NCBI GenBank assembly: GCA_937138475.1
Contig: CAKZPD010000008.1
Span: 1-64,000, forward strand
Length of the DNA: 64,000 nucleotides
Direction: 5' to 3'
Origin: an uncultured Sulfitobacter sp.
GTDB lineage: Bacteria > Pseudomonadota > Alphaproteobacteria > Rhodobacterales > Rhodobacteraceae
A program made the translations under genes and the position numbers. Below, piece after piece: positions 30,526 to 46,002 of this stretch. Under the pieces are notes generated by a model. That model saw only the letters and a list, made by a program, of their open reading frames with translations, did not search any database and had not been told where the DNA came from. How positions within the stretch are numbered: the stretch's first letter is position 1; every line of letters begins with the position of its first letter.

Positions 30526-31851
30526 TTAGAAATCTCGGAGCATTAGCCCAGCATATACCGCAGGCAGCAGCGCCCGCCTTGCCCGGCCCAAAGGAAAGGC
30601 CGCCAGCGGACCGCGCAGGGCGCGCGGATAAATCGCGGGGGTTTGACCCTGCACCAATTGCGCAAGGGTTTGGCCGGCGAAACTGCCCATGGCGACACCG
30701 TTCCCGTGATAACACAGCCCCGCCCACAGGCCCTTGGCCCCAGGCAAAGCCCCGACAAAAGGCAGGCGACGACGCGCCAGGCATACCATCCCAGACCAAT
30801 AATGCGGGGTTTCCACCTTGGACCAAGCCGGGAACATCGCGCGGAAATCGCGGCGAAGGGCTGCGTGGGCGCGGGTGTCGCTTGCCGGGCTGGACAGAAG
30901 CCCCCCGCGCATCCCGAACAAGAACCGCCGATCCGGCATCAGGCGAAAATAATGTAGCAAACTCCGAGAATCAAAAGCCATCTGGTCGCTGTGCCAACCC
31001 TGGGCCGATAATTCTTCTTGGCTGAGGGGGCGGGTGACGAGCACGCTTGATTGCGTAGGCAGATAGCGCCCCGCAAGCGCCGGCGGCAGGTCTTCGGATG
31101 AATACCCATTGGTGGCAATGATCACATCGGTGGCACGCACCGAGCCATGGGCGCATGCAATCCGGTGTCGCCTGCCTTCGGGCAGGATCGACAAAGCAGC
31201 CGAGCGTTCAAAGATCCGGGCCTGTGCGGCATGGGCGGCGGCGGCCAACCCTTGCGCATATTTGGCCGGGTTCAAAGCAAAGCCAATGGGCACCGTGAGC
31301 GCGCCAAAAAACGGGCCGTTCATGCCAATTTCCGCCAGATCCTGTTGATCGTGAATGCGCCCGCTGACGCCATAATTCCGCGCAATCGCGGGTAATTTGG
31401 CGCGCAGGGCAATCATATCCTTGCGGCGGTGGGCCAGCTCGGTCTCTCCGGCAGAGTGGCGATCGACGTCAATTTTATGGTCCCGCAACAGCTGGTCAAC
31501 CAATTGCACGGCGGTTTTTTCAGTTTGTCGCAGCAGCAGGCGCTCTTGTTCGCCGAACTGGCGGTCCAGCGTCGCATCGTCCAGCATCGTGCCGCCCAAA
31601 CAGCAAAACCCGCCGTTGCGCCCCGAGGCACCCCAGGCGATATGTTCGCTGTCCAGCAGGGCAACCTGGGCGCCGGCCTGCGCCAAATGCAGGGCCGCGC
31701 TAAGCCCGGTAAACCCACCCCCGACGATCGCCACGTCGACCTCAATATCCCCTTGCAAGGTTGGCCATGTCTGGGGCGTGACCGTCTGATCCCACCAGCA
31801 GCCGGCGCGCGGCGCCGGGCCATAGGCATAGGCGGAAAAGATACGTTTCAT
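30526..31851 (-). CDS. FAD-dependent amine oxidase, gamma-glutamylputrescine oxidase-like
   Basis: 441 residues of the DAO superfamily. The dinucleotide motif VAIVGGGFTGLSAALHLA is at about residues 40-57, followed by WGASGRNGGFCCLGGTML, the pattern of PuuB/OrdL-type oxidases. The ATG overlaps the potI stop (ATGA), so it is the last gene of potFGHI-puuB. It probably oxidises putrescine or a gamma-glutamyl derivative. No puuA (glutamylating enzyme) is in the window, so the true substrate is open. Confidence 0.85.
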   Translation of the reverse strand: MKRIFSAYAYGPAPRAGCWWDQTVTPQTWPTLQGDIEVDVAIVGGGFTGLSAALHLAQAGAQVALLDSEHIAWGASGRNGGFCCLGGTMLDDATLDRQFGEQERLLLRQTEKTAVQLVDQLLRDHKIDVDRHSAGETELAHRRKDMIALRAKLPAIARNYGVSGRIHDQQDLAEIGMNGPFFGALTVPIGFALNPAKYAQGLAAAAHAAQARIFERSAALSILPEGRRHRIACAHGSVRATDVIIATNGYSSEDLPPALAGRYLPTQSSVLVTRPLSQEELSAQGWHSDQMAFDSRSLLHYFRLMPDRRFLFGMRGGLLSSPASDTRAHAALRRDFRAMFPAWSKVETPHYWSGMVCLARRRLPFVGALPGAKGLWAGLCYHGNGVAMGSFAGQTLAQLVQGQTPAIYPRALRGPLAAFPLGRARRALLPAVYAGLMLRDF

Positions 31852-32666
31852 GTGGCGCGGGCGGCGGCTTGCTCGTCTTTTTGTTGGCGCAGGCTGTTGC
31901 GTTTGCTGACCAACGAGGCGCTGATAACCCCAACCGTTACGATGGCAATCATGATGGTCGACAGGGCGTTGATCTCGGGCGAGACACCAAGCCGCACCGC
32001 GCTGAAAATCTTGATAGGCAGGGTGGTTGCCGACGGTCCGGCGGTGAAGGACGCGATCACCAGATCATCCAGCGACAGGGTAAAGGCCAGCAGCCAGCCG
32101 GAAATCACCGCAGGGGCGATGATCGGCAGGGTGACAAGGCGAAAGGCTTCAAAGTTGGAGCAGCCAAGATCCAGCGCCGCCTCCTCAAGCGAGCGGTCAA
32201 AACTCACCAATCGAGAGGAAACCACCACCGACACATAGCACATGGCAAAGGTGGTATGCGCCAGCACGATGGTCAGCACGCCGCGATCCAGCCCGATGCC
32301 GATGAACAGCAACAACAGCGACAGGCCGGTGATCACTTCGGGCATGACAAGCGGGGCGTAGATCATCCCCGAAAACAGCGTGCGCCCCATGAACCGCCCG
32401 CCGCGCACCAGAACATAGGCCGCCATGGTTCCCAAGATGGTGGCAAGGCTTGACGACATGACCGCAACCTTGATCGTGACCCAAGCCGCATCCAGAAAGG
32501 CCTCGTTTTCGAAAAGAGAGCCATACCATTTGGTTGAAAACCCGGCCCACACCGTCACCAGTTTTGATGCGTTGAAGCTGTAGATGATCAAAATCACCAT
32601 CGGCATGTACAAAAAGGCAAAGCCAAAGGTTAAAGAGGTTACGTTAAACCAGCTTAATTTGTTCAT
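31848..32666 (-). CDS. potI: Putrescine ABC transporter permease PotI-like
   Basis: 272 residues from ATG 32666 (MNKLSWFNVTSL), which overlaps the potH stop. About six membrane helices. The EAA cytoplasmic loop is EEAALDLGCSNFEAFRLVTLP near residues 165-185, with LPIIAPAVISGWLLAFTLSLDD after it. It pairs with PotH as the channel of the first polyamine importer. Confidence 0.92.
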   Translation of the reverse strand: MNKLSWFNVTSLTFGFAFLYMPMVILIIYSFNASKLVTVWAGFSTKWYGSLFENEAFLDAAWVTIKVAVMSSSLATILGTMAAYVLVRGGRFMGRTLFSGMIYAPLVMPEVITGLSLLLLFIGIGLDRGVLTIVLAHTTFAMCYVSVVVSSRLVSFDRSLEEAALDLGCSNFEAFRLVTLPIIAPAVISGWLLAFTLSLDDLVIASFTAGPSATTLPIKIFSAVRLGVSPEINALSTIMIAIVTVGVISASLVSKRNSLRQQKDEQAAARAT

Positions 32667-33538
32667 CCCTCGGCCTCTGCTTGTCGTTGCTGGTTGCGTT
32701 GGAACAAAATGATCGGGACGATCAGGATCAACAGCAAGATAACCGCCACAGCGCTGGCCACGGGCCAATCGCGGTTGTTAAAGAATTCTTCCCACAGAAC
32801 TTTGCCGATCATTAGCGTGCCGGACCCGCCCAGCAGGCTGGGGATGACGAATTCACCCAGCGCCGGGATAAACACCAAAAAGCTGCCGGCGATGATGCCG
32901 TTCTTTGACAGGGGCACGGTCACCAGCCAAAACGCCTTGAGACGCGAACACCCCAGATCTTCGGCGGCTTCGATCAACGACCCGTCGAGCCGCTCCAGCG
33001 CCGCATAGATGGGCAAAATCATAAACGGCACATAGGTATAGACAATGCCGATATAGACCGCGGTTGTGGTGTTCAAAATCGTCAGCGGCTCTGATATCAA
33101 CCCGCTCCACAGCAAAAATTGGTTCAGAAATCCTTCTTGGCTTAGGATTCCCATCCACGCATAGACCCGGATCAAGAAGCTGGTCCAAAAGGGCAAAATC
33201 ACCAGCATCATCAGCGTTGGGCGCCATTCTTCCGGGGCGCGGGCCATGCCATAGGCGATAGGATAGCCGACCATCAAGGTCATCAAGGTAGAGAAAAGCG
33301 CGATGCGCAGGCTGCTTAGATATGCCTTCCAATAGAGGTCGTCGCTGGTCAAAAAGGCGAAATTTTCAAAATCGAGCGCGGCGATAAACGGGCCCACACC
33401 GTCTTTCAGCGTTGGCGTATAGGGCGGAATGGCAAGGGCTACATCCGACAGTGATATCTTGAAGACGATCAAGAACGGCACCAAAAACAGCGCCAACAGC
33501 CAAAGGTAAGGCACAAAGATCAAGGCAAATCGCTGCAT
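32663..33538 (-). CDS. potH: Putrescine ABC transporter permease PotH-like
   Basis: 291 residues from the ATG at 33538; a TTG one codon earlier is also possible. Six helices; EAA loop IEAAEDLGCSRLKAFWLVTVPL, then IIAGSFLVFIPALGEFVIP. The 65-residue first periplasmic stretch between helices 1 and 2 is of normal size, in contrast to the paralogue at 43176. Coupled to potI by ATGA. Confidence 0.92.
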   Translation of the reverse strand: MQRFALIFVPYLWLLALFLVPFLIVFKISLSDVALAIPPYTPTLKDGVGPFIAALDFENFAFLTSDDLYWKAYLSSLRIALFSTLMTLMVGYPIAYGMARAPEEWRPTLMMLVILPFWTSFLIRVYAWMGILSQEGFLNQFLLWSGLISEPLTILNTTTAVYIGIVYTYVPFMILPIYAALERLDGSLIEAAEDLGCSRLKAFWLVTVPLSKNGIIAGSFLVFIPALGEFVIPSLLGGSGTLMIGKVLWEEFFNNRDWPVASAVAVILLLILIVPIILFQRNQQRQAEAEG

Positions 33539-33575
33539 CAAAGGCCCCCGTATGTGATGATAAGAAGCAACCCGG

Positions 33576-34703
33576 TCATTGATCCAGCAATACCCCGGCT
33601 GTTGCCGTCCAGCTGATCCAGACCGTGTCCTCCCAGGTGAATGATCGGCGGGAAACGCGCCGGGTGTTTGCGGCCTGGGCCTTGATCACCTGGCCGCCCG
33701 GCAAGGCGACATGATAGGTGCTAAGGTTTCCAAGATACGCAATATCAAGAATTTTTCCCTGGATGGCGTTGTCCGCATCTGTGGGGCGTTCGGCGTTGAT
33801 GGCGATTTTTTCGGGCCGGATGGCCAAAAAGCAGGCCTGGCCTTCGGAAAACACGGTATCGGATATTGCGGTCACTGGCCGTTGGCCTTCATCCCATGTC
33901 ACGGCATAACTGCCGGTGCCGTTTGCGGTTGCTGTGCCCTTTAGGATGTTCACATCCCCAATGAAATCAGCGACATAAACAGAATTGGGCGCCTCATAAA
34001 TGCGCTCGGGGGTGGCGACCTGCATCACCCGGCCTTCGTCCATCACGGCGACCCTGCTGGCGACGGTCATGGCCTCTTCTTGGTCGTGGGTGACAATCAC
34101 AAAGGTGGTGCCGGTCTTTTCTTGAATATCCATCAGCTCAAACTGGGTGGCTTGGCGCAGCTTGGCGTCCAGCGCCCCCAGGGGTTCATCCAAAAGCAGC
34201 AGCTTTGGCGCCTTGGCCAGCGACCGTGCCAAGGCGACACGCTGACGTTGCCCCCCCGAGATCTGGTGCGGCTTCCGGCGGGCGAATTTCTCAAGCCGGG
34301 TCAGTTTGAGCATCTCAGAGACGCGCGCGTCAATCTGTTCGCGCGGCATGGTTCCCCGGCGCAGGCCAAAGGCAATGTTGTCGTAAACCGTAAGATGCGG
34401 AAACAGCGCATAGGATTGAAACATCATGTTCACGGCGCGTTTGTTGGGCGGGACGGGGCCAATATCCTGGCCTGACAGCTCGATTGATCCTTCGGTGGCG
34501 GTTTCGAAACCGGCCAACATGCGCATCATCGTGGTTTTGCCGCATCCTGATGGCCCCAGCAGCGCGAAAAATTCGCGCTCGTATATATCCAGGGTCAGAT
34601 TGTCGATTGCGACAAATTCGCCAAATCTCTTGGTGACGCCCTTGAAACGAATGAGAGGTTTGGCAGAGGGATCATCCCATGGGGTAAAGACGGCTTGGTT
34701 CAC
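33576..34703 (-). CDS. potG: Putrescine ABC transporter ATPase PotG-like
   Basis: 375 residues from a GTG at 34703, six bases after AAGGA; the in-frame codons further up have no ribosome site. Walker A GPSGCGKTT at residues 50-58, signature ISGGQRQRVALARSL, Walker B LLLLDEPLGALD, switch His in VTHDQEEAM, then a C-terminal TOBE domain. Energises polyamine uptake with PotF, PotH and PotI. Confidence 0.93.
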   Translation of the reverse strand: MNQAVFTPWDDPSAKPLIRFKGVTKRFGEFVAIDNLTLDIYEREFFALLGPSGCGKTTMMRMLAGFETATEGSIELSGQDIGPVPPNKRAVNMMFQSYALFPHLTVYDNIAFGLRRGTMPREQIDARVSEMLKLTRLEKFARRKPHQISGGQRQRVALARSLAKAPKLLLLDEPLGALDAKLRQATQFELMDIQEKTGTTFVIVTHDQEEAMTVASRVAVMDEGRVMQVATPERIYEAPNSVYVADFIGDVNILKGTATANGTGSYAVTWDEGQRPVTAISDTVFSEGQACFLAIRPEKIAINAERPTDADNAIQGKILDIAYLGNLSTYHVALPGGQVIKAQAANTRRVSRRSFTWEDTVWISWTATAGVLLDQ

Positions 34704-34720
34704 GTCGCATCCTTCAAAAT

Positions 34721-34772
34721 GCCCGCCAAGGCAGGCGTCATCACGCAAGGCGAGGCATGGCGCCCCGCCTTG
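34721..34772 (-). promoter_or_regulatory. Two stem-loops between potF and potG
   Basis: In the 84-nt gap, CAAGGCG (34746-34752) pairs with CGCCTTG (34766-34772) with further inner pairing, and GCCCGCC (34721-34727) pairs with GGCAGGC (34730-34736). No T-run follows. Such structures after a binding-protein gene commonly protect its mRNA 3' end or partly stop transcription, giving excess binding protein over permease. Confidence 0.55.
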
Positions 34773-34787
34773 AGTTGATCCGCGGTC

Positions 34788-35870
34788 TTAGGTGCCGGAT
34801 TTGATCTTGGTCCACAAACGGGTCACGACACGCTGCACTTTGGCAGGGTATGGCGTTGTGGTGTAAAGGTTTTCCAAGGTCGCCGCGTCCGGATAAATTG
34901 CCGGGTCGCCAATCACATCCTCAAGCAGCAGCGGCTGTGACGCCTTGTTGCCATTGGCATAATAGACATAGTTCGACGCATCGGCCATGTTTTGCGCATC
35001 CAGAATAAAGTTCAGGAATTTATGCGCCGCGTCTGGGTTCGGGGCATCGACTGGGATGGCCATTTGGTCAAACCACATCAAGGCGCCTTCGGACGGCGCA
35101 TTATAGACGATGTCTACACCGTTTTCCGCTTCGGCGGCGCGGTCACGGGCCTGAAGGATGTCACCCGACCAGCCGAAGGCCACACAGATGTCGCCGTTGG
35201 CCAGCGCGTTGATATATTCCGAGCTGTGGAACTTTTGGATATAGGGGCGCACGGCTGTAAAGACGGCCTCGGCCTTGGCGATCACCTCGGGGTCTCTGGA
35301 ATCGGGGTCTTCGCCCAGATACTTTAGCGCGGCAGGGATCATTTCGGCAGGGGCGTCCAGCACATGCACGCCACATTCCGCCAGTTTCGCCATGTTGTCG
35401 GGGTTAAAGATCAGCTCGAGCGAGCCAAGCGGCGCGTCGTCCCCCAAGAGGGCGGTGACTTTGTTGGCGTCGGCGCCAATGCCCGTGGTGCCCCACATAT
35501 AGTTGATTGAATAGGCGTTATCGGGGTCATACTGTGCGGTGCGCTTTTCGATCACATCCCACAGGTTGCCCTTGTTGCTCAGCTTGGCCGGGTCCAGTTT
35601 CTGGAACGCACCCGCCGAGATCTGTCTTTGCAAGAATGTGCCGGATGGGACGACGACGTCATAGCCCGATCCACCGGCCAGCATCTTGGTTTCCAGCACC
35701 TCGTTGCTGTCAAACACGTCATAGATCAGATCGATTCCGGTTTCCGCCTCGAACTTGTCCAACAGCGCTTCGTCGATATAGTCAGACCAGTTGTAAACGC
35801 GCACCTCTTCCGAGGTCGCGGCAGTTGCCAGAACCGCGATGGCGGCGCTGCTAAGCATCAGCTGCTTCAT
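34788..35870 (-). CDS. potF: Periplasmic putrescine/polyamine-binding protein PotF-like
   Basis: 360 residues with a signal peptide (MKQLMLSSAAIAVLATAATS, cut near residue 20). Polyamine-binding family hallmarks: VRVYNWSDYIDEALLDKFE at the mature N-terminus, and later DIVYNAPSEGALMWFDQMAIP, which carries the acidic ligand pocket. First gene of the leftward potFGHI-puuB operon. The proposed operator at 35914 and a leader hairpin at 35891 lie directly upstream. Confidence 0.94.
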   Translation of the reverse strand: MKQLMLSSAAIAVLATAATSEEVRVYNWSDYIDEALLDKFEAETGIDLIYDVFDSNEVLETKMLAGGSGYDVVVPSGTFLQRQISAGAFQKLDPAKLSNKGNLWDVIEKRTAQYDPDNAYSINYMWGTTGIGADANKVTALLGDDAPLGSLELIFNPDNMAKLAECGVHVLDAPAEMIPAALKYLGEDPDSRDPEVIAKAEAVFTAVRPYIQKFHSSEYINALANGDICVAFGWSGDILQARDRAAEAENGVDIVYNAPSEGALMWFDQMAIPVDAPNPDAAHKFLNFILDAQNMADASNYVYYANGNKASQPLLLEDVIGDPAIYPDAATLENLYTTTPYPAKVQRVVTRLWTKIKSGT

Positions 35871-35890
35871 AGTACACTCCCTTTTTCAGG

Positions 35891-35905
35891 CTGGGTTTTT
35901 CCCAG
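35891..35905 (-). promoter_or_regulatory. Hairpin in the potF leader
   Basis: CTGGG-TTTTT-CCCAG, 5-base arms, starting 20 nt before the potF start codon and next to its AAAGGGAG ribosome site. Short enough that chance is possible. Confidence 0.3.
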
Positions 35906-35913
35906 TCTGTGGT

Positions 35914-35927
35914 AATTTGATCAAATT
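35914..35927. promoter_or_regulatory. Proposed operator 1 of the polyamine GntR regulator
   Basis: AATTTGATCAAATT, a perfect 14-base palindrome 43 nt before potF and 90 nt before the regulator gene, in their divergent gap. Near-identical elements occur at 36733 and 40749. Length and symmetry fit a dimeric GntR/FCD regulator. Confidence 0.65.
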
Positions 35928-36017
35928 TTTTCGTCTCCGGCAAGGGAAAATATGATTTTGCCTTGCCTCAAGCAGTGTCAGCATAGCAAAAGAGCAGTGA
36001 TCAACAAAAGCAGACAT

Positions 36018-36710
36018 ATGAACCAGATGAGCGAAAACGTGATGCCCCCCCCGGCGCCCGAACAGGCCAAGACCCCGGCGCATCAGTCGGTCTATCAGCG
36101 GCTGCGGATGCGCATCCTGTTTGGGGACTTTGTGCCGGGTCAGGCCGTGACAATCCAAGGTCTGACGACGGATCTGGATGTTGGCATGACCCCGGTCCGC
36201 GAGGCCCTGCGCCGGTTGATTTCGGATGGCGCCCTCAAGATGCAGGGCAACCGCCGTGTCAGTGTGCCGCATCTTACGGCATCTTGTATCAACCAGTTGG
36301 ATTATATGAGACAAATGCTTGAGCCACAGCTGGCCCGTCTGGCGGCTCGGCAAATGACTCAGCCGGTTTTGACCCAATTGAAACAGTATGACGATGCGCT
36401 AAATGTGGCCATCGCGCGCGGTGACATTCCGGGGTATTTGACCCAGAACTATCGGTTTCATGCCGCCATAAACGCCAGCGCCGATGCCCCGATCCTGGCT
36501 GAAACCGTGGATCGCCTGTGGTTGCGCTTTGGGCCGTCTTTGCGGGTGGTTTGCGGCCACCACGGCACGCTTAACCTGCCTGACAAACACATAGAGATGC
36601 TGCGCGCCTTTGAAAATCGCGACCCCGAGGCCGCGGCGCGGGCGATGTCCGAGGATGTTCAGCAGGGGATGGTTCAGATCAAGAACGCATTGGACCAAGA
36701 TCGCCTGTGA
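36018..36710 (+). CDS. GntR-family (FCD/FadR subfamily) transcriptional regulator
   Basis: 230 residues from ATG 36018 (MNQMSENVM). The winged-helix domain is at about 25-90: SVYQRLRMRILFGDFVPGQ, then TDLDVGMTPVREALRRLISDGAL. The all-helical FCD effector domain follows, with metal/ligand-type histidines in NYRFHAAI and FENRDPEAA. Position between the potFGHI-puuB operon (divergent) and the aminotransferase gene (downstream) makes polyamine control the natural guess. Ligand unknown. Confidence 0.88.
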   Translation: MNQMSENVMPPPAPEQAKTPAHQSVYQRLRMRILFGDFVPGQAVTIQGLTTDLDVGMTPVREALRRLISDGALKMQGNRRVSVPHLTASCINQLDYMRQMLEPQLARLAARQMTQPVLTQLKQYDDALNVAIARGDIPGYLTQNYRFHAAINASADAPILAETVDRLWLRFGPSLRVVCGHHGTLNLPDKHIEMLRAFENRDPEAAARAMSEDVQQGMVQIKNALDQDRL

Positions 36711-36720
36711 TGTGATTCGA

Positions 36721-36748
36721 TTGACATGGCATAATTTGATCATATTCT
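36721..36748 (+). promoter_or_regulatory. Promoter of the aminotransferase gene
   Basis: TTGACA at 36721-36726, 16-base spacer, TATTCT at 36743-36748; a close match to the sigma-70 consensus in the 82-nt gap after the regulator gene. The proposed operator 2 fills the spacer, which suggests repression by blocking polymerase. Confidence 0.6.
36733..36746. promoter_or_regulatory. Proposed operator 2 of the polyamine GntR regulator
   Basis: AATTTGATCATATT, 13 of 14 bases identical to the perfect palindrome at 35914, lying between the -35 and -10 and 46 nt before the aminotransferase start codon. Confidence 0.6.
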
Positions 36749-36792
36749 AGGCCGCAGTTTCTGACCCTTCCGTTTGCTTTGAAAGGCGCGCC

Positions 36793-38187
36793 ATGTCTGT
36801 CATCACCAATCATCTTCCGACCGCTGAACTTCAGGCGCTTGATGCTGCCCACCATATGCACCCCTTCACAACCAACGATGATCTGGCCAAACGGGGCGTC
36901 CGGGTGATCACCCGCGCCAAGGGGGTGTATCTGACCGACAGCGATGGCCACGAAATTCTGGACGGGATGGCCGGTCTTTGGTGTGTCAATATCGGCTACG
37001 GGCGCGCCGAACTGGCCGAAGTGGCGGCCCGGCAAATGACCGAACTGCCTTATTACAACACGTTTTTCATGACCACGCATGTGCCGGCCATCGCGCTGGC
37101 ACAAGAGATCGCCAAACTGGCGCCCGAGGGCATGAACCAGGTTTTCTTTGCCGGCTCTGGCTCGGAGGCGAATGACACCAATATTCGGCTGGTGCGCACC
37201 TATTGGGATGAAAAGGGCAAGCCGGGGAAAAAGGCGATTATCAGCCGCAAGAATGCCTATCACGGGTCGTCGGTCGGGTCCGGGTCGCTGGGCGGTATGG
37301 CGCCAATGCACGCGCAGGGCGGTCTGCCCATTCCGGATATCCATCACATCGGTCAGCCCGATTGGTGGTCAGAGGGCGGCGACATGACGCCCGAGGCCTT
37401 CGGCCTGGCCCGCGCGCAAGAGTTGGAGGCAAAGATCCTCGAGCTGGGCGAAGACAGCGTTGCGGCCTTCATCGCCGAGCCGGTGCAGGGCGCGGGTGGG
37501 GTGATTGTCCCGCCGTCGACCTATTGGCCAGAAATTCAGCGGATTTGCGACAAATACGAGATATTGCTCATCGCGGATGAGGTGATCTGCGGTTTTGGCC
37601 GCACGGGTGAATGGTTCGGTAGCCACACCCTGGGCCTGCGACCCGATATCATCACGATCGCCAAGGGGCTCAGCTCGGGCTATCAGCCGATTGGGGGGTC
37701 CATCGTTCGGGACGATGTTGCCAAAGTGATCAACGCCACCGAATTTAATCACGGTTATACCTATTCGGGCCACCCTGTGGCGGCGGCTGTGGCGCTTGAG
37801 AATTTGCGGATCATGCAAGAAGAGGACGTGCTTGGCCATATGCGCAACGTCGCCATGCCGGCCTTTCACCAGGGCCTTGAGGCCCTGACCGATCACCCCC
37901 TGGTCGGAGAGGCAAAATACTGCGGCTTGATGGGTTCCATCGCCCTGACACCACACAAAGCCACCCGTGCGGCCTTTGCGGCGGACAAGGGCACGGTGGG
38001 GTATCTGTGCCGCGAACGCTGTTTCGCCAACAAGGTGATCATGCGCCATGTCGGGGATCGCATGGTGCTTTCGCCGCCTTTGGTCATCACCGAGGCCGAA
38101 TTGACCGAATTGTTCAAGCGGGCGCGCAAGGCATTGGATGAAACCTATGCCTTGCTGCAAGAAAAAGACCTGCTTCACGCCGCCTGA
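36793..38187 (+). CDS. Class III aminotransferase, putrescine/diamine:pyruvate type (SpuC-like)
   Basis: 464 residues, PLP fold type I. N-terminal HHMHPFTTNDDLAKRGVRV; cofactor segments FAGSGSEANDTNIRL and IADEVICGFGRTGEWFG; the PLP lysine is K291 in TIAKGLSSGYQPIGG. Closest in pattern to SpuC/YgjG-like polyamine aminotransferases, which turn putrescine into 4-aminobutanal. Substrate is inferred from the two polyamine transporters and the oxidase around it; other omega-amino compounds are possible. Confidence 0.88.
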   Translation: MSVITNHLPTAELQALDAAHHMHPFTTNDDLAKRGVRVITRAKGVYLTDSDGHEILDGMAGLWCVNIGYGRAELAEVAARQMTELPYYNTFFMTTHVPAIALAQEIAKLAPEGMNQVFFAGSGSEANDTNIRLVRTYWDEKGKPGKKAIISRKNAYHGSSVGSGSLGGMAPMHAQGGLPIPDIHHIGQPDWWSEGGDMTPEAFGLARAQELEAKILELGEDSVAAFIAEPVQGAGGVIVPPSTYWPEIQRICDKYEILLIADEVICGFGRTGEWFGSHTLGLRPDIITIAKGLSSGYQPIGGSIVRDDVAKVINATEFNHGYTYSGHPVAAAVALENLRIMQEEDVLGHMRNVAMPAFHQGLEALTDHPLVGEAKYCGLMGSIALTPHKATRAAFAADKGTVGYLCRERCFANKVIMRHVGDRMVLSPPLVITEAELTELFKRARKALDETYALLQEKDLLHAA

Positions 38188-38191
38188 CGGA

Positions 38192-39349
38192 TCAGGTCAG
38201 GCGTTCTGCAAGGCGGTCCAGCATGCCAAGGCAGGCCTCCAGTTGATCCAGGCTCACATACTCGTCGGGTTTGTGGGCCTGGGCAATGGATCCGGGGCCG
38301 CAAACCACCACATCCATCCCCATTTCCTGAAACAGGCCTGCTTCGGTGCCAAAGGGCACCAGATCGGCGCCGTTCGCCCCCAAAAGCCCGGCCACCAGAT
38401 CGCGCGCGGCGTTTTCGCTTAGGGGTTCCAGCCCGGCGACCTCGCCTATGGTTTCGATTTTGATATCGGCGTCGGGGCAGACTTGCCGCATGGCGGGCAG
38501 CAGCTGTGTTTCGACATAGCTGCCGATTTGGTCTTTCACATAGGCAAGGTCGGATTGCTGAACGGGGCGCATTTCCCAATCGACCTCGGCCTTGCCGACG
38601 ATCACATTGTGGGCCACGCCGCCGGATATCCGCCCGATATTCAGTGTGGTCCAGGGCGGCTCGAAACGGCTGTTTGAGGGGGTGCGGCTGATCAGATCCT
38701 GTCGCAGCTCAAGCAGGCGCCCGACATAGCGCACGGCATATTCGGCCGCATTGACCCCGGCGCCGGGGTCCGATCCGTGTCCTTCAAGGCCGGTAAAGCG
38801 CGCGGTATATTCGCAGCACCCCTTGTGGCCTTCGATCACCTGCATTTGGGTCGGCTCGCCGATAATCGCGATGCTGGGCGCATAGCCTTTGGCCCGCAGC
38901 GCCGGCACCAGATGGCGCGCGCCAATGCAGCCTGTTTCCTCGTCATAGGTAAAGGCGAAATGCACCGGACGCTTAAGGTCAAGCGCGGCGTATTTTTCGG
39001 CCATCACCACCGACGCGGCGATGAACCCTTTCATGTCACAGGCCCCGCGCCCAAACAGGCGGTCGTCGCGCCGGATCATGACAAAGGGATCGCTGGTCCA
39101 ATCCTGATCGGCCACGGGCACCACATCGGAATGACCGGACAGGACGATCCCGCCCGGCGCATCCGGCCCGATTGTGGCAAAAAGATTGGCCTTGGCGCCG
39201 GTGTCATCGTGGAACAAATCCACCCGCGCGCCGCAGGTCTCAAGACGATCGGCAAGATCGCCGATCATCGCAAGGTTGCTGTCGGGCGACACAGTCGGAA
39301 AGGAAATGAGCCGCCCCAAAAGGTCAACCGTTTGATCCAGTGCCGTCAT
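38192..39349 (-). CDS. Acetylornithine deacetylase-like M20 hydrolase
   Basis: 385 residues from ATG 39349 (MTALDQTVDLL), overlapping the stop of the M24 gene (ATGA). Di-zinc site intact: SGHSDVVPV, GRGACDMKGF and YDEETGCIGARH with the catalytic Glu. Similar to ArgE in length and pattern, but the setting is polyamine catabolism rather than arginine synthesis, and it is coupled to a hydrolase. It may remove an acetyl group from an acetylated amino acid or polyamine. Confidence 0.82.
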   Translation of the reverse strand: MTALDQTVDLLGRLISFPTVSPDSNLAMIGDLADRLETCGARVDLFHDDTGAKANLFATIGPDAPGGIVLSGHSDVVPVADQDWTSDPFVMIRRDDRLFGRGACDMKGFIAASVVMAEKYAALDLKRPVHFAFTYDEETGCIGARHLVPALRAKGYAPSIAIIGEPTQMQVIEGHKGCCEYTARFTGLEGHGSDPGAGVNAAEYAVRYVGRLLELRQDLISRTPSNSRFEPPWTTLNIGRISGGVAHNVIVGKAEVDWEMRPVQQSDLAYVKDQIGSYVETQLLPAMRQVCPDADIKIETIGEVAGLEPLSENAARDLVAGLLGANGADLVPFGTEAGLFQEMGMDVVVCGPGSIAQAHKPDEYVSLDQLEACLGMLDRLAERLT

Positions 39350-40530
39350 GGTTTGACGAACATCTTGCGCGGCCGGTTGCACAGGGTTTCGGCCGGACCG
39401 TCAGCGCGAATGCGGATGCTTTCGGTGATTTCGATGCCCCAGTCCTTCATCCACAGCCCCGGCATGAAATGAAAGGTCATGTCCGGTTCCAGAACGGTCT
39501 CATCCTCGGCGCGCAGGGAAATCGTGCGCTCGCCCCAGTCGGGGGGATAGCTGACCCCAATCGGATACCCACAGCGCGCGCCGCGTTCGATGCCGGCCGC
39601 CTCAAGCGGCGCGGCCAGCGCATTGGCCACATCGCAGGCGCGGTTGCCGGCGCGGGCCGCGTCCAGACCGGCCTCAAGCCCTTCGACCAGGGCCGCCTCG
39701 GCGCGTTTCAGGAAATCGGGCGGGGTGCCCAGAAACAGCGTCCGGCAGAATGGCGCGTGATAGCGGCGATAACAGCCTGAAATTTCAAAGAATGTCGCTT
39801 CGCCTGTGGCAAAGGGGCGGCCATCCCACGTCAGATGCGGTGCGGCGGCATCACTGCCTGACGGCAACAGCGGCACGATCGCGGGGTAATCGCCCCAGGC
39901 CCCGTCGACACCGCGCACCGCGTCACGATAGATTTCCGCGACGATCTCGTTCTTTGGCACGCCGGGTTCGACGCGTTCAATCAGCCCGTCCACGATCTTT
40001 TCTGATATCTGTGCCGCCTTGCGCATAAAGGCCAGCTCGGGCGCGGATTTCACCGCCCGCTTCCAGTTAACCAGCGCCGTGGCATCGACAATTGTCGCAC
40101 CCGGAAGCCGTTCGCAAAGCGCGGCATGGGCCTTGGCGGAATAGTAATAGTTATCCATCTCGACGCCGATGCGCCCTTTGGCCAGACCCAGCGCATCAAG
40201 ATGGCGGCCCAGCTCTTGCATCGGGTGCCGTTCCGTGGATTGCACAAAGCCGTCGGCATAACCAAAGACGCGCTCGGCCCCCATCCAGACGGTGCGCAGG
40301 GCGCCATTGGTGTCTTGGTTGCGCCCCCACCAGATCGGGTCAGCGTCGGGCAGGACGATCACCCCTTGGTGCACATAGAACGACCAGCCGTCATAGCCGG
40401 TCAACCAGGCTTGATTCGATGGATCCGTGACAAAAAGCGCATCCAGACCGCGCAGGTCCATTTCCGCCCGAACCAAAGCCAACCGGCGCTGATATTCCGC
40501 GCCGTCAAAGGGCAAATCAATCGCTGCCAT
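39346..40530 (-). CDS. Creatinase-fold M24 hydrolase (ectoine hydrolase DoeA-like)
   Basis: 394 residues: an N-terminal creatinase-like domain (YQRRLALVRAEMDLRGLDAL, then TGYDGWSFYVHQGVIVLP) and a C-terminal pita-bread domain. Metal ligands of M24 peptidases are not where expected: the first Asp pair is replaced in FFEISGCYRRYHAPFCRT, and the GHGIG histidine is replaced in GYPIGVSYPP. This resembles metal-independent creatinase. Relatives include ectoine hydrolase; no ectoine genes are seen nearby. Probably a C-N hydrolase rather than a peptidase. Confidence 0.75.
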   Translation of the reverse strand: MAAIDLPFDGAEYQRRLALVRAEMDLRGLDALFVTDPSNQAWLTGYDGWSFYVHQGVIVLPDADPIWWGRNQDTNGALRTVWMGAERVFGYADGFVQSTERHPMQELGRHLDALGLAKGRIGVEMDNYYYSAKAHAALCERLPGATIVDATALVNWKRAVKSAPELAFMRKAAQISEKIVDGLIERVEPGVPKNEIVAEIYRDAVRGVDGAWGDYPAIVPLLPSGSDAAAPHLTWDGRPFATGEATFFEISGCYRRYHAPFCRTLFLGTPPDFLKRAEAALVEGLEAGLDAARAGNRACDVANALAAPLEAAGIERGARCGYPIGVSYPPDWGERTISLRAEDETVLEPDMTFHFMPGLWMKDWGIEITESIRIRADGPAETLCNRPRKMFVKP

Positions 40531-40617
40531 ACAGCGTCCTTTCCTGATTTAAATTCTGCGCGAAATTGTTCCAGGTGGGGGCTTGGCGCAAGATAATTGT
40601 GTGGATCGGGCGCGGGT

Positions 40618-40636
40618 TTTTGGCATAATTCCAAAA
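40618..40636. promoter_or_regulatory. Inverted repeat in the M24 / second transporter divergent gap
   Basis: TTTTGG (40618-40623) and CCAAAA (40631-40636) around 7 bases, 88 nt upstream of the M24 gene in the 268-nt divergent gap. Possibly a second operator. The rest of the gap holds the promoter and operator 3 described next. Confidence 0.3.
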
Positions 40637-40722
40637 TTCGGCGCATGGGCGCATGAAAGCGACGGTTTTTTCGTCAGCGCCTTGGCGTGAATTCAAAAAA
40701 CGGACAGGCACAGGAAATCGGG

Positions 40723-40762
40723 TTGCAACTGTCATGCAAGCCCGTAGTATTATGATCAAATA
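40723..40762 (+). promoter_or_regulatory. Promoter and proposed operator 3 of the second polyamine transporter
   Basis: TTGCAA (40723-40728), 16 bases, TAGTAT (40745-40750). ATTATGATCAAATA at 40749-40762 shares TGATCAAAT with operators 1 and 2 and would cover the transcription start. It lies 36 nt before the start codon. Confidence 0.5.
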
Positions 40763-40798
40763 GCGCGGATAACCGCCAAGTAATCCAGGGAGCCAATT

Positions 40799-41899
40799 TT
40801 GGCAAACACGATGAATAATGAGGCGTTCGTAGAGTTCGAACGCGTTCAAAAAAGCTATGACGGCGAAAACCTGGTCGTCAAGGATCTGAACCTGTCTTTG
40901 CCCAAGGGCGAATTCCTGACAATGCTTGGGCCGTCGGGATCGGGCAAGACCACTTGCTTGATGATGCTGGCGGGGTTCGAAACGGCAACCCACGGCGACA
41001 TCCGCCTGAATGGCCAGTCGATCAACAATATCCCGCCGCACAAACGTGGTATCGGCATGGTGTTTCAAAACTATGCCCTGTTTCCGCATATGACGGTTGC
41101 GGAAAACCTGTCGTTCCCGCTTGAGGTCCGCAAAATCGGCAAGTCCGAGCGCGAAGACAAGATCAAGGTGGCGCTGGATCGCGTGCAGATGGGCAATTTC
41201 GCTGGTCGCCGTCCCGCACAGCTTTCGGGTGGGCAGCAGCAGCGTATCGCCTTGGCCCGCGCCCTGGTGTTTGAGCCCGAGCTGGTGTTGATGGACGAGC
41301 CGCTGGGCGCCCTTGACAAGCAGCTGCGCGAAACCTTGCAGTTTGAGATCACTCACCTCGCGCACGAGCTGGGCATTACCGTGGTTTATGTGACGCATGA
41401 CCAGACCGAAGCCCTGACCATGTCCGACCGTGTGGCGGTTTTCGACGATGGCCGCATTCAGCAGCTGGCCCCGCCAGACAAACTGTATGAAGAGCCTGAA
41501 AACAGCTTTGTCGCCCAGTTTATCGGCGAAAACAACACGCTGGAAGGGGTGGTCAAGGAAATCAAGAACGGCAGCGCTTTGGTGCAGCTTGATGACGGCA
41601 GCCTGATTGACGCCAAGCCGATTAATGTCTCCAAGCCCGGAGAGCGCACGCGCGTTTCCATCCGCCCCGAGCGCGTGGAATACAACAAGGACCGTCTGCG
41701 CGCCGATGCGCATACCCTCAGCGCGGAAGTGCTTGAGTTTATTTATATGGGCGATATTTTCCGCACCCGCCTGCGGGTGGCCGGGCGCGATGATTTCGTG
41801 ATCAAGACACGGAACGCACCGGATCAGGTTCGCCTTAAGCCGGGTCAGCAGATCGAAATCGGTTGGCTGGCCGAAGATTGTCGCGCGCTGGACGCCTAA
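40799..41899 (+). CDS. Polyamine ABC transporter ATPase (second system, PotA-like)
   Basis: 366 residues with a TTG start at 40799: AGGGAG lies six bases before it, while the first in-frame ATG (40811) would be 18 bases away. Walker A GPSGSGKTT, signature LSGGQQQRIALARAL, Walker B LVLMDEPLGALD, VTHDQTEAL, then a TOBE domain (from about 280). First gene of a four-gene operon. It is a paralogue of potG rather than a duplicate. Confidence 0.92.
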   Translation: MANTMNNEAFVEFERVQKSYDGENLVVKDLNLSLPKGEFLTMLGPSGSGKTTCLMMLAGFETATHGDIRLNGQSINNIPPHKRGIGMVFQNYALFPHMTVAENLSFPLEVRKIGKSEREDKIKVALDRVQMGNFAGRRPAQLSGGQQQRIALARALVFEPELVLMDEPLGALDKQLRETLQFEITHLAHELGITVVYVTHDQTEALTMSDRVAVFDDGRIQQLAPPDKLYEEPENSFVAQFIGENNTLEGVVKEIKNGSALVQLDDGSLIDAKPINVSKPGERTRVSIRPERVEYNKDRLRADAHTLSAEVLEFIYMGDIFRTRLRVAGRDDFVIKTRNAPDQVRLKPGQQIEIGWLAEDCRALDA

Positions 41900-42014: not shown

Positions 42015-43106
42015 ATGAAACTCACCAAAACGCTCTTGGCCACCACTGCCCTGACCGTCGCGGCTGGCTTTGCTGTGGCCGAAGACATGACCATCGTCAG
42101 CTGGGGCGGCGCCTATTCTGCCTCGCAGAAGGCGGCCTATCATGACCCCTATTCCGCAAAGACCGGCGTCAACATCATCAACGACGAATCCTCGGCCGAA
42201 GCGGTGGCAAAACTGCGCGCGATGAACGAAGCGGGCAATGTCACATGGGATGTGGTCGATGTCGTTGCATCGGATGCGATGCGTTTGTGCGACGAAGGTC
42301 TGGCGATGGAAATCGACGCCGATACACAGCTGGCCCCCGCCCCTGACGGCACCCCCGCCAGCGAAGATTTCGGCGAATTGCTGGTCTCTGACTGCTTTAT
42401 CCCGCAGATCGTTTATTCGACGACCTTTGGCTATCGCACCGACCTGGTCGGCAGCACACCGCCCACATCGGTCTGTGCGATCTTTGACACGCAAACCTAT
42501 CCCGGCAAGCGTTCGCTGGAAAAGCGCCCGATCAACAACATGGAATGGGCTTTGCTGTGTGACGGTGTTGCCAAGGCCGATGTCTATGACGTTCTGGAAA
42601 CAGCCGAAGGTCAGCAGCGCGCGCTCGACAAGCTGGCCACGATCAAGGACGATGTTGTCTGGTGGTCCGCCGGTGCCGACACGCCCCAGCTTTTGGCCGA
42701 CGGCGAAGTTGTAATGGGATCGACCTATAACGGACGTCTGTTCAGCCTGATCGAAGAGCAAAAGCAACCCGTTGCCATGCTTTGGGATGCCCAGGTGTTT
42801 GACCTTGACGGCTGGATCATTCCCGCCGGTCTGAGCGACGAGCGCAAAGCCCGCGCGCTGGACTATATCATGTTCGCGACCGACACCCAGCGTCTGGCAG
42901 ATCAAGCCAAGTATATCTCTTACGGTCCGGCCCGCGCGTCTTCGGCGCCACTGGTTGGCAAGCACGCGACCTTGGGTATCGACATGGCACCACACATGCC
43001 AACCGACCCAGAGAACGCCAAGAACACATTCTTGTATAACTATGAGTTCTGGGCCGACTATCGCGATGATATCGACGCCAAATTCCAGGCGTGGCTGGCA
43101 CAATAA
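42015..43106 (+). CDS. Extracellular polyamine-type solute-binding protein (second system)
   Basis: 363 residues with a signal peptide (MKLTKTLLATTALTVAAGFA, cut at AVA-ED). The mature part starts MTIVSWGGAYSASQKAAYHD, the pattern of the PotD/opine-type branch (SWGGxY) rather than the NWSDYI of PotF, so the ligand is probably different. It has several Cys (SDCFIPQIVYS, SVCAIF, LLCDGV), unusual for the family, which may form disulfides. Confidence 0.9.
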   Translation: MKLTKTLLATTALTVAAGFAVAEDMTIVSWGGAYSASQKAAYHDPYSAKTGVNIINDESSAEAVAKLRAMNEAGNVTWDVVDVVASDAMRLCDEGLAMEIDADTQLAPAPDGTPASEDFGELLVSDCFIPQIVYSTTFGYRTDLVGSTPPTSVCAIFDTQTYPGKRSLEKRPINNMEWALLCDGVAKADVYDVLETAEGQQRALDKLATIKDDVVWWSAGADTPQLLADGEVVMGSTYNGRLFSLIEEQKQPVAMLWDAQVFDLDGWIIPAGLSDERKARALDYIMFATDTQRLADQAKYISYGPARASSAPLVGKHATLGIDMAPHMPTDPENAKNTFLYNYEFWADYRDDIDAKFQAWLAQ

Positions 43107-43175: not shown

Positions 43176-44819
43176 ATGATGAGCGATAGCACCCACACCG
43201 GCCCCATGCTGGCCGCAGACGGCACAACCCTCAAGTCCAGCCTGAATCGGGCGCTGCGGCGGCAAAAATTGCGGGCTTTGATGTTGATTGCCCCATTGCT
43301 GATCTTTGTCCTTGTGACCTTTATCGCCCCGATTGCGGATATGCTGTTCCGCTCGGTCGAGAACCAGATCGTTTCCGACACGCTGCCCCGCACCACCCAG
43401 ATGCTTGGCGATTGGGACGCAGACGCCGCCGATATCCCCGCGCCCCAAGTGTTCGAGGCGCTGTATGTGGATATGTTCATCGCGACCGAGCGCAAGCTGC
43501 ACACGCGGCTTGGTTCGCGGTTGAATTACGAGCTGACAGGCGTGTCGTCGCTGTTCCGGAAATCCGGCCGCAAGGTCGAAGACATGGGCGAAGTCTATCA
43601 AGATCAGTTTGAAGATCTGGACAAGTTCTGGAAAAAGGGCGCCAATCTGAATGCGCTGTTTGGCGCCCCGGATTGGCAGGCCGCCCAGGCGGCTTGGGAC
43701 ACCAGCGATAAAAAGGCACAGCCCAAGTTCAAACTGCGAAGCGGTCTTGAAACCGTGTTGCCGCAAGCCTCCGAAGCATTCGATGTCTATGCCCGGTTCA
43801 CCCAGGGCGAAGACGGCAAAAACCTGTCCAAGGCCAAGCCTTGGGCGTTGATCTATTCGGCGCTTTACAATGATTTGGTCGCGCAGCCCGCCGGCTTGGC
43901 GGCCTTGGATGCCCCCGGTGCCGATGAATTGCGCGCCGCTGCTGCGCGTGTTGGCGATTTTGACACCGTCGACTTTACCGCCGCGTTCAAAAAGATCGAC
44001 AAAGATTGGGTGTCGCAGGACGTCTGGCGGGTGATCAAGACCTATTCGCCGCGCTTTACCAACGGTTATTTCCTCAACTCGATCGACATGAAAAAGACCG
44101 CGGATGGGCCGCAAATGCGGGCCGAGAACGAACAGCTTTATATCAAACTGTTTATCCGCACGCTGTTCATGTCGCTGGTTATTACCGGCAGCTGCATCTT
44201 GCTGGGCTATCCGGTGGCGTGGATTTTGGCCAACCTGCCGGCGAAAACCGCCAATTTGTTGATGATCTTGGTGTTGCTGCCGTTCTGGACTTCGCTCTTG
44301 GTGCGCACATCGGCATGGAAGGTCATGCTGCAACAGCAGGGGGTGATCAATGATACGCTGGTCTGGCTGGGGCTGGTCGCGGATGACAGCCGTCTGGCGC
44401 TGATCAACAACCAAACAGGCACCATCATCGCGATGACACATATCTTGCTGCCCTTCATGATCTTGCCGCTCTTTTCGGTGATGAAGACCATCCCGCCCAG
44501 CTATCTTCGGGCGGCAAAATCGCTTGGCGCAACCAATTGGACAGCCTTCTGGCGGGTGTATTTCCCGCAATCAGTGCCCGGCATCGGCGCCGGTTCGATC
44601 TTGGTCTTTATCTTGTCCATCGGATACTACATCACCCCCGAGATCGTCGGCGGCACCACCGGCACCTTCATTTCCAACCGGATCGCCTATCACATCTCCA
44701 GCTCGCTGAACTGGGGTCTGGCGGCGGCACTGGGGGCCATCTTGCTGGCTGTGGTTTTGGGGCTTTACTGGGCTTATGACCGTATCGTCGGCATCGACAA
44801 CGTGAAACTGGGGGGCTAA
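43176..44819 (+). CDS. ABC transporter permease with a large periplasmic insert (PotB-like core)
   Basis: 547 residues from the ATG at 43176 (a second ATG follows at once). Helix 1 is at about 35-57, then some 260 polar, helix-rich residues (58-320; for instance GSRLNYELTGVSSLFRKSG and DLDKFWKKGANLNALFGAP), and the ordinary permease core from 321 with EAA loop LRAAKSLGATNWTAFWRVYF. PotB-type permeases are normally near 280 residues. The insert has no cysteine or signal and should lie in the periplasm between helices 1 and 2, where it may contact the binding protein. Confidence 0.9.
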   Translation: MMSDSTHTGPMLAADGTTLKSSLNRALRRQKLRALMLIAPLLIFVLVTFIAPIADMLFRSVENQIVSDTLPRTTQMLGDWDADAADIPAPQVFEALYVDMFIATERKLHTRLGSRLNYELTGVSSLFRKSGRKVEDMGEVYQDQFEDLDKFWKKGANLNALFGAPDWQAAQAAWDTSDKKAQPKFKLRSGLETVLPQASEAFDVYARFTQGEDGKNLSKAKPWALIYSALYNDLVAQPAGLAALDAPGADELRAAAARVGDFDTVDFTAAFKKIDKDWVSQDVWRVIKTYSPRFTNGYFLNSIDMKKTADGPQMRAENEQLYIKLFIRTLFMSLVITGSCILLGYPVAWILANLPAKTANLLMILVLLPFWTSLLVRTSAWKVMLQQQGVINDTLVWLGLVADDSRLALINNQTGTIIAMTHILLPFMILPLFSVMKTIPPSYLRAAKSLGATNWTAFWRVYFPQSVPGIGAGSILVFILSIGYYITPEIVGGTTGTFISNRIAYHISSSLNWGLAAALGAILLAVVLGLYWAYDRIVGIDNVKLGG

Positions 44820-44823
44820 GACC

Positions 44824-46002
44824 ATGGCTGCACTCACACCTGTGTCCCGCACACCCGTATCTTTTTATGTTCCGGTCGTTGGCCTGTTTGGGGCGTTGGC
44901 GGGCCTGTTTGTCGGCACCGCCCAAGGCAGCACCCTTGGCGGCATCGTTCTGGGCGCGGCGATCATGGCGCTGATCGCGCTGATCCTGACCAAGGCCCTG
45001 CCCAGCGAACGTGCCGGGCGTTTGGCCCTGATCGGCCTTGGCGCTCTGGCGGGTTATGCCATGGGCGGTATTGCCGCGGGGCTGATTGGTCTGCTGTTCG
45101 GCTGGTTCTTTGGCTGGTTCACCTTCTGGCTGTTCGAAGGTCGCTATCGCGCCAAACTGGTGCCCTATCTCACGCCGGGTCAGGTCCTGTGGCATTTCAC
45201 CTTCCGCTTTATTTGTGGCGCCATCTTGGTGTTTTTGATCACCCCAATCTTGGTGGTCATGCCCCTGTCCTTCAACGCCGAGGCCTTCTTCACCTTTACC
45301 CCGGAAATGCTGCGCTTTGACCCGGCGGGGTATTCACTGCGCCACTACCGTGATTTCTTCACCAACTCCGACTGGCAAAGCTCTCTGGCGAACTCCGTCA
45401 GGATCGCCCCTGTGGCCACCTTGCTCTCGGTCAGCTTCGGCACATTGGCCGCCATCGGCCTCAGCCAACCGCATGTGCCCTTCCGCCGCGCCATCATGGC
45501 AATCTTGATCTCGCCAATGATCGTGCCGCTGATCATCTCGGCGGCGGGCATGTATTTCTTCTACAGCCGCATCGGCCTGCAAGGCACCTATATCGGCGTG
45601 GTTCTGGCCCATGCCGCGCTGGGTATCCCCTTCGTGATCATCACCGTCACCGCGACCTTGGTCGGGTTTGATTCCTCCCTGACCCGCGCCGCGGCCAATA
45701 TGGGCGCCAACCCGGTGACAACCTTCTTCCGGGTGCAAATGCCGCTGATCTTGCCCGGCGTCATCTCGGGTGGCCTCTTTGCCTTCATCACGTCTTTCGA
45801 CGAGGTGGTCGTGGTGCTCTTTGTCGGTTCTGCCGGGCAAAAAACCCTGCCATGGCAAATGTTCACCGGCCTGCGCGAACAAATCAGCCCCACAATCCTT
45901 GCCGTGGCAACGATCCTTGTGATCATCTCCATTGCCCTGCTCACCGTGGTTGAACTGCTGCGCCGGCGCTCCGAACGTCTGCGCGGCATGTCGCCCAGCT
46001 AA
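44824..46002 (+). CDS. ABC transporter permease with extra N-terminal membrane segments (PotC-like core)
   Basis: 392 residues. The first 105 contain three or four additional hydrophobic segments rich in Gly/Ala/Leu (FGALAGLFVGTAQG; LALIGLGALAGYAMGGIAAG; IGLLFGWFFGWFTFWLF). The PotC-like core begins near residue 125 (HFTFRFICGAILVFLITPIL), with EAA loop TRAAANMGANPVTTFFRVQM. Partner of the preceding permease (4 nt gap). Both partners are enlarged, so this is an unusual transporter architecture. Confidence 0.9.
   Translation: MAALTPVSRTPVSFYVPVVGLFGALAGLFVGTAQGSTLGGIVLGAAIMALIALILTKALPSERAGRLALIGLGALAGYAMGGIAAGLIGLLFGWFFGWFTFWLFEGRYRAKLVPYLTPGQVLWHFTFRFICGAILVFLITPILVVMPLSFNAEAFFTFTPEMLRFDPAGYSLRHYRDFFTNSDWQSSLANSVRIAPVATLLSVSFGTLAAIGLSQPHVPFRRAIMAILISPMIVPLIISAAGMYFFYSRIGLQGTYIGVVLAHAALGIPFVIITVTATLVGFDSSLTRAAANMGANPVTTFFRVQMPLILPGVISGGLFAFITSFDEVVVVLFVGSAGQKTLPWQMFTGLREQISPTILAVATILVIISIALLTVVELLRRRSERLRGMSPS

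Follow-up and report, generated by a model that had tools for sequence, protein, structure and literature searches.

Ectoine and 5-hydroxyectoine are degraded by a pathway in which EutD opens the ring, EutE deacetylates alpha-ADABA, and DoeD and DoeC then lead to aspartate (PMC3187862, PMC5924519, PMC8739950). The EutD of R. pomeroyi is active on both ectoine and 5-hydroxyectoine (PMC13188858, PMC8739950), and adjacent eutD-eutE pairs served as the selection criterion of one large survey (PMC8739950). In H. elongata the corresponding deacetylase, DoeB, is an AstE/AspA-type enzyme, and doeA without doeB was noted in 2011, with alternative routes being proposed (PMC3187862). The doeBDAC clusters of methylotrophs encode a DoeB that is just 22% identical to that of H. 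elongata, and they share their gene order with the DoeB2-type clusters (PMC7192451 for the methylotroph clusters). In the doeB-doeD-doeA-doeC clusters that we examined, the deacetylase is an M20 amidohydrolase that passes the NCBIfam DoeB2 model. A literature search for ectoine-catabolic deacetylases of the ArgE/M20 type gave only abgB, in Bacillaceae clusters without eutE (PMC13188858), a result that is no proof of novelty.

A coupled M24-M20 gene pair and its hydrolase

The two genes analysed here lie on the reverse strand of a 64,000-nucleotide stretch of DNA from an uncultured Sulfitobacter sp., the whole of which we call the window. The first (39346..40530) encodes a 394-residue protein of the M24/creatinase fold, a homologue of the EutD/DoeA-type ectoine hydrolases, and the second (38192..39349) a 385-residue M20 deacetylase of the ArgE type, which we propose as a replacement for EutE. 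In the window's open reading frames, the M24 stop and the M20 start overlap as ATGA, and the coupling is kept across relatives (median gap of -1 nt in 100 relatives, with a 4-nt overlap in 41 of them), which bears out the co-translation suggested in the preliminary description. The neighbours are also as described there, namely a PotF-type and a PotA-type ABC system, a class III aminotransferase and a GntR regulator. The aminotransferase gene (PRK07480 type; 36793..38187, forward strand) is convergent with the M20 gene; its product is only 40% identical to the DoeD-type enzyme and is therefore not a DoeD orthologue.

Over its full length, the window's M24 protein matches the solved EutD/DoeA structure 6twk with 501 bits and ~57% identity, versus 65 bits for the best prolidase match and 48.9 bits for creatinase (1chm), an M24-fold enzyme in which the usual metal site is absent. 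On these scores, we rejected a creatinase or a peptidase function. Upon alignment to the Bacillus prolidase 3q6d, the five prolidase ligands (D, D, H, E, E) correspond to E249, P260, Y322, M356 and T369, where the fifth column is slightly ambiguous because E370 adjoins T369. The protein thus departs from the five-ligand pattern of prolidases and M24 metallopeptidases, and it carries instead the exact EutD pattern at these positions together with the conserved His232, as the broad EutD/DoeA family does. The same replaced residues and His232 occur in 105 of 105 M20-partnered relatives and in 17 of 17 EutDs partnered by EutE, including the crystallised R. pomeroyi EutD, which argues for a conserved loss of the metal site rather than decay. 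Between these two groups, 89 positions are nearly invariant (at least 97%) in both and only 4 are fixed differently. The absence of the usual metal ligands that had been read from the sequence earlier was hence confirmed, the alignment showing all five replaced rather than a complete metal site; of the creatinase- or ectoine-hydrolase-like chemistry proposed alongside it, the ectoine-hydrolase part is favoured and the creatinase part is not.

The protein is 56-61% identical to EutE-partnered EutDs and scores 584.1 bits on the ectoine hydrolase equivalog model TIGR02993, below the curated cut-off of 613, so that we treat it as ectoine-hydrolase-like in its working and not as a formal member of that family. 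Most EutD-type proteins of the window's family score 540-625 bits on this model, straddling the cut-off, which likely makes automatic annotation of ectoine hydrolases erratic. The protein resembles EutD/DoeA (R. pomeroyi 6twk/6twj and H. elongata DoeA) in identity, replaced ligands, His232 and position in the same tree, and some of its relatives have the same accompanying genes; it differs in its TIGR02993 score, its separate clade and its M20 partner. Most likely, to judge from these comparisons, it would work like an ectoine hydrolase.

An ArgE-type partner as a proposed replacement for EutE

The M20 protein scores 362 bits on the acetylornithine deacetylase (ArgE) model TIGR01892 (cut-off 297.7), and its nearest PDB entry is the ArgE structure 7rsf. 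Its di-metal site is complete (H73, D75, D105, E137, E138, E165 and H359, numbered from the ATG at 39349), with ligands that are invariant in 124 homologues. Like EutE/DoeB, it is encoded directly after the hydrolase gene and would catalyse the same reaction; unlike EutE, which belongs to AstE_AspA_cat, it belongs to Peptidase_M20 (PF01546), so that the partner beside this EutD homologue is not the AstE/AspA-type deacetylase by which EutE/DoeB (TIGR02994) is recognized. Like DoeB2 (NF038260), found in doeBDAC clusters alongside DoeA2, it is an M20 enzyme that would stand in for EutE in ectoine breakdown. However, DoeB2 is a different M20 subfamily, and its partner DoeA2 shares just 31-35% identity with the window's M24 protein. 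Membership in DoeB2 was rejected: BLAST at 1e-5 did not match the window's M20 protein to any DoeB2 protein, and NF038260 was not among its best 25 NCBIfam families. ArgE is the closer likeness, in subfamily and in its complete metal site, and its substrate is one carbon longer than the one we propose; in contrast to ArgE, the window's protein is tied to an EutD-type hydrolase and not to arg genes.

We compiled relatives from two locus sets, one from a scan of genome contigs (80 loci), which was seeded with the window protein and is thereby biased to near relatives, and one from 120 genera sampled in the window's family (86 matches, 80 analysed), and annotated the loci by tblastn with the window and cluster proteins. 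Loci with an M24 protein at least 63% identical to the window's were taken as window-type, which, after removal of identical proteins, gave 120 window-type and 34 other EutD loci. The M20 gene is adjacent in 103 of the 120 window-type loci and EutE in none, whereas EutE is adjacent in 16 of the 34 other loci and the window-type M20 in none. Within the genus sample alone, M20 is adjacent in 37 of 43 window-type loci and in 0 other EutD loci (Fisher p 8e-17, with related genomes being non-independent). In a FastTree phylogeny, the M20-partnered M24 proteins form one clade nested among the EutE-partnered EutDs (SH-like support 98), with no EutE-partnered member.

At the level of whole genomes, we searched 14 window-type genomes without an adjacent M20 gene (11 loci of the contig scan plus G041, G004 and G059), and 10 of them carry a close M20 (62-66% identity, with paralogues at 35-45%) elsewhere; the remaining four had no close M20 elsewhere in the genome either. 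Among control genomes, M20 occurred in 0 of 12 without EutD, in 1 of 15 that have both EutD and EutE, and in 6 of 14 with an other-clade EutD and no EutE (two of the six at 56%). This distribution fits M20 taking the place of EutE. One genome, G013, carries both an EutD-EutE and an M24-M20 pair. Two further genomes (G045, locus L124; G109, locus L128) encode EutDs scoring 762 and 704 bits, have no EutE match, and hold only M20 paralogues of 40% identity.

Gene context in relatives and in the host genome

In 34 of the 120 window-type loci, two or more of the genes eutB, eutC, ssd, asnC and doeD are found no farther than 6.5 kb away. Representative EutB proteins of such loci exceed TIGR02991 (414-433 bits, cut-off 413) and PRK07476 (439-447 versus 413), and the EutC-type cyclodeaminases exceed PRK08291 (459-466 versus 408) and fall below TIGR02992 (434-448 versus 472). 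Of six M20-clade loci that were scanned, five (L062, L074, L187, L049 and L056) have an EhuB above the cut-off, and L080 has one narrowly below it. The DoeD-type aminotransferase is 71-81% identical across the M20-type and EutE-type groups, the same as within either, while EutB and EutC of M20-type clusters are ~53-57% identical to the L083 proteins versus 68-72% for EutE-type clusters, a divergence that could mean that the whole lineage has shifted substrate. The locus of Pseudooceanicola atlanticus (L024) has the gene order of the window, with PotD2-PotA2 to one side of M24, and M20, the aminotransferase, PotF-PotI and FAD oxidase to the other; here eutB-eutC-asnC-ssd-doeD lie between M24 and PotA2. 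The window looks like this locus minus these five genes; their place, which is the same in L011, L024 and others, is taken in the window by a divergent intergenic region (40531..40798). The eutB-eutC operons of five M20-type clusters (L058:1392-2573, L061, L080, L170 and L181) end with a further M24-family protein that shares 27-32% identity with that of the window; the one in L058 scores 206 bits on the DoeA2 model, well below the cut-off. An extra eutD homologue is also present in Bacillaceae clusters (PMC13188858).

Beyond the intergenic region, on the forward strand, lie the genes of a candidate importer: the PotA-type ATPase PotA2 (40799..41899; TIGR01187 372.7 bits, cut-off 355.6), which adjoins M24 in many relatives, the substrate-binding protein PotD2 (42015..43106; SBP_bac_8), and two permease reading frames (43176-44819 and 44824-46002) that are kept with them in relatives. 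The PDB entry nearest to PotD2 is the spermidine/putrescine binder 8jv1, followed by a GABA sensor and by agropine and mannopine binders. Of the 120 window-type loci, 48 are flanked by PotA2 and PotD2 genes. The Pot2 genes are also present in 5 of the loci that hold two or more eut/doe genes, where they are co-directional with the eut/doe genes lying between Pot2 and M24. In L134 (6004-11914, genome G036), the same four transporter genes (PotA2, PotD2 and the permeases) are followed directly and co-directionally by an other-clade EutD gene, an arrangement that supports a link of this transporter with ectoine hydrolases. The Pot-type ABC transporter, polyamine-like by family, is a candidate ectoine importer.

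On the far side of the pair, FAD oxidase, PotI, PotH, PotG and PotF genes (reverse strand) and a GntR regulator gene (forward strand) form a putative putrescine block (30526..36710), PotF scoring 425 bits on its model, below the cut-off of 636. With the aminotransferase included, the stretch 30526-38187 is a probable block for putrescine uptake and oxidation. An aminotransferase and PotF occur near M24 in 25 of 120 window-type loci, and most relatives do not have the FAD oxidase, PotI-PotF and GntR genes beside M24-M20; the block is probably a neighbour with a separate function.

Unlike 34 of its 120 relatives, the window itself has no eut/doe genes linked to M24, and its genome has no EutE (best match 62.8 bits versus 402.7), no EutB above cut-off and no close DoeC (semialdehyde dehydrogenases at 48% or less), which led us to reject the idea that the genome holds a complete ectoine cluster at another place. 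A DoeD-type aminotransferase homologue, 78% identical, is encoded on another contig, C34; a hidden ectoine cluster around it was rejected as well, its neighbours resembling, by eye, purine/ureide genes. The earlier statement that ectoine genes are absent does not hold, given this homologue and the M24 gene itself. Degradation of ectoine to aspartate, with the later steps scattered over the genome, is plausible, and any use of 5-hydroxyectoine would proceed without EutB. The genome also encodes ArgJ, which makes ArgE dispensable for arginine synthesis.

Proposed pathway and alternative readings

The earlier idea of ring opening followed by deacetylation by a different deacetylase family is well supported by the tree, the conserved residues, the genes nearby and the co-occurrence across genomes. 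We put a probability of about three in four on the pair acting in the breakdown of ectoine and/or 5-hydroxyectoine, with ArgE-type deacetylation replacing EutE after EutD-type ring opening, as predicted from sequence comparison. The M24 protein would open the cyclic amidine metal-free, as is thought for EutD/DoeA, to yield N-alpha-acetyl-2,4-diaminobutyrate, which the co-translated di-metal M20 enzyme would deacetylate to 2,4-diaminobutyrate; this proposed substrate has one carbon fewer than its homologue N-alpha-acetylornithine, on which ArgE acts. The DoeD-type aminotransferase on C34 and a semialdehyde dehydrogenase may then lead to aspartate, and the divergent Pot-type ABC transporter would be the likely importer. 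The preliminary description had raised the possibility that the route is undescribed and serves an acetylated or cyclic diamine. A diamine other than the ectoines is less likely, since relatives of the pair lie among eutB, eutC, asnC, ssd, doeD and ehuB, which makes ectoine or 5-hydroxyectoine the most probable substrate. An M20 enzyme in the deacetylase role has a precedent in the DoeB2 clusters, from another M20 subfamily; what is new is an ArgE-type M20 variant of the known hydrolase-deacetylase bimodule, apparently undescribed.

The M24 clade might be an EutD paralogue specialised on 5-hydroxyectoine alone or on another cyclic amidine, with M20 adapted to the product. We regard this as unlikely. 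In its favour, EutB, EutC and EutD diverged together in M20-type clusters, the EutD and EutC equivalog cut-offs are missed, the importer is of a different type, and the two pairs of G013 could mean different substrates. Against it, only four group-fixed differences separate these proteins from EutE-partnered EutDs, several M20-type clusters encode EhuB ectoine-binding proteins above cut-off, DoeD, SSD and AsnC have hardly diverged, and R. pomeroyi EutD takes both ectoines (PMC13188858, PMC8739950). A module of M24, M20 and the Pot-type transporter that imports and degrades a non-ectoine cyclic amidine, and that was overlooked through the hydrolase's likeness to ectoine hydrolases, seems a rather doubtful proposition.

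The adjoining PotF/PotG/PotH/PotI, aminotransferase and FAD oxidase genes, with aminotransferase and PotF near in those 25 relatives, might place the pair in the degradation of an acetylated compound, either a polyamine or an amino acid. Yet most relatives keep M24-M20 without these genes, many having eut/doe genes instead, and an open-chain acetyl polyamine would make a ring-opening hydrolase superfluous; we consider this very improbable. Least credible, and largely refuted, is a plain M24 peptidase beside an arginine-pathway ArgE: the M20 protein does pass the acetylornithine deacetylase model, but the replaced ligands and the EutD-like score of the hydrolase, the presence of ArgJ, the conserved pairing and the eut context all speak against it, and an arginine role for M20 is unlikely.

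Surveys of ectoine consumers that are keyed on adjacent eutD-eutE genes overlook the M24-M20 form. Among the 120 genera sampled in the window's family, the M24-M20 pair was present in 37 of the loci analysed, and EutE exceeded its cut-off in 17 genomes. If ectoine breakdown by the pair is correct, ectoine use by marine Rhodobacteraceae is undercounted, another type of deacetylase has been recruited to the ectoine pathway, and the spermidine/putrescine-type ABC system may represent one more class of ectoine importer. Most likely, the M24-M20 pair would let its marine host consume the osmolyte ectoine, pairing a ring-opening enzyme of known type with an ArgE-like second enzyme that is common in the host's family.
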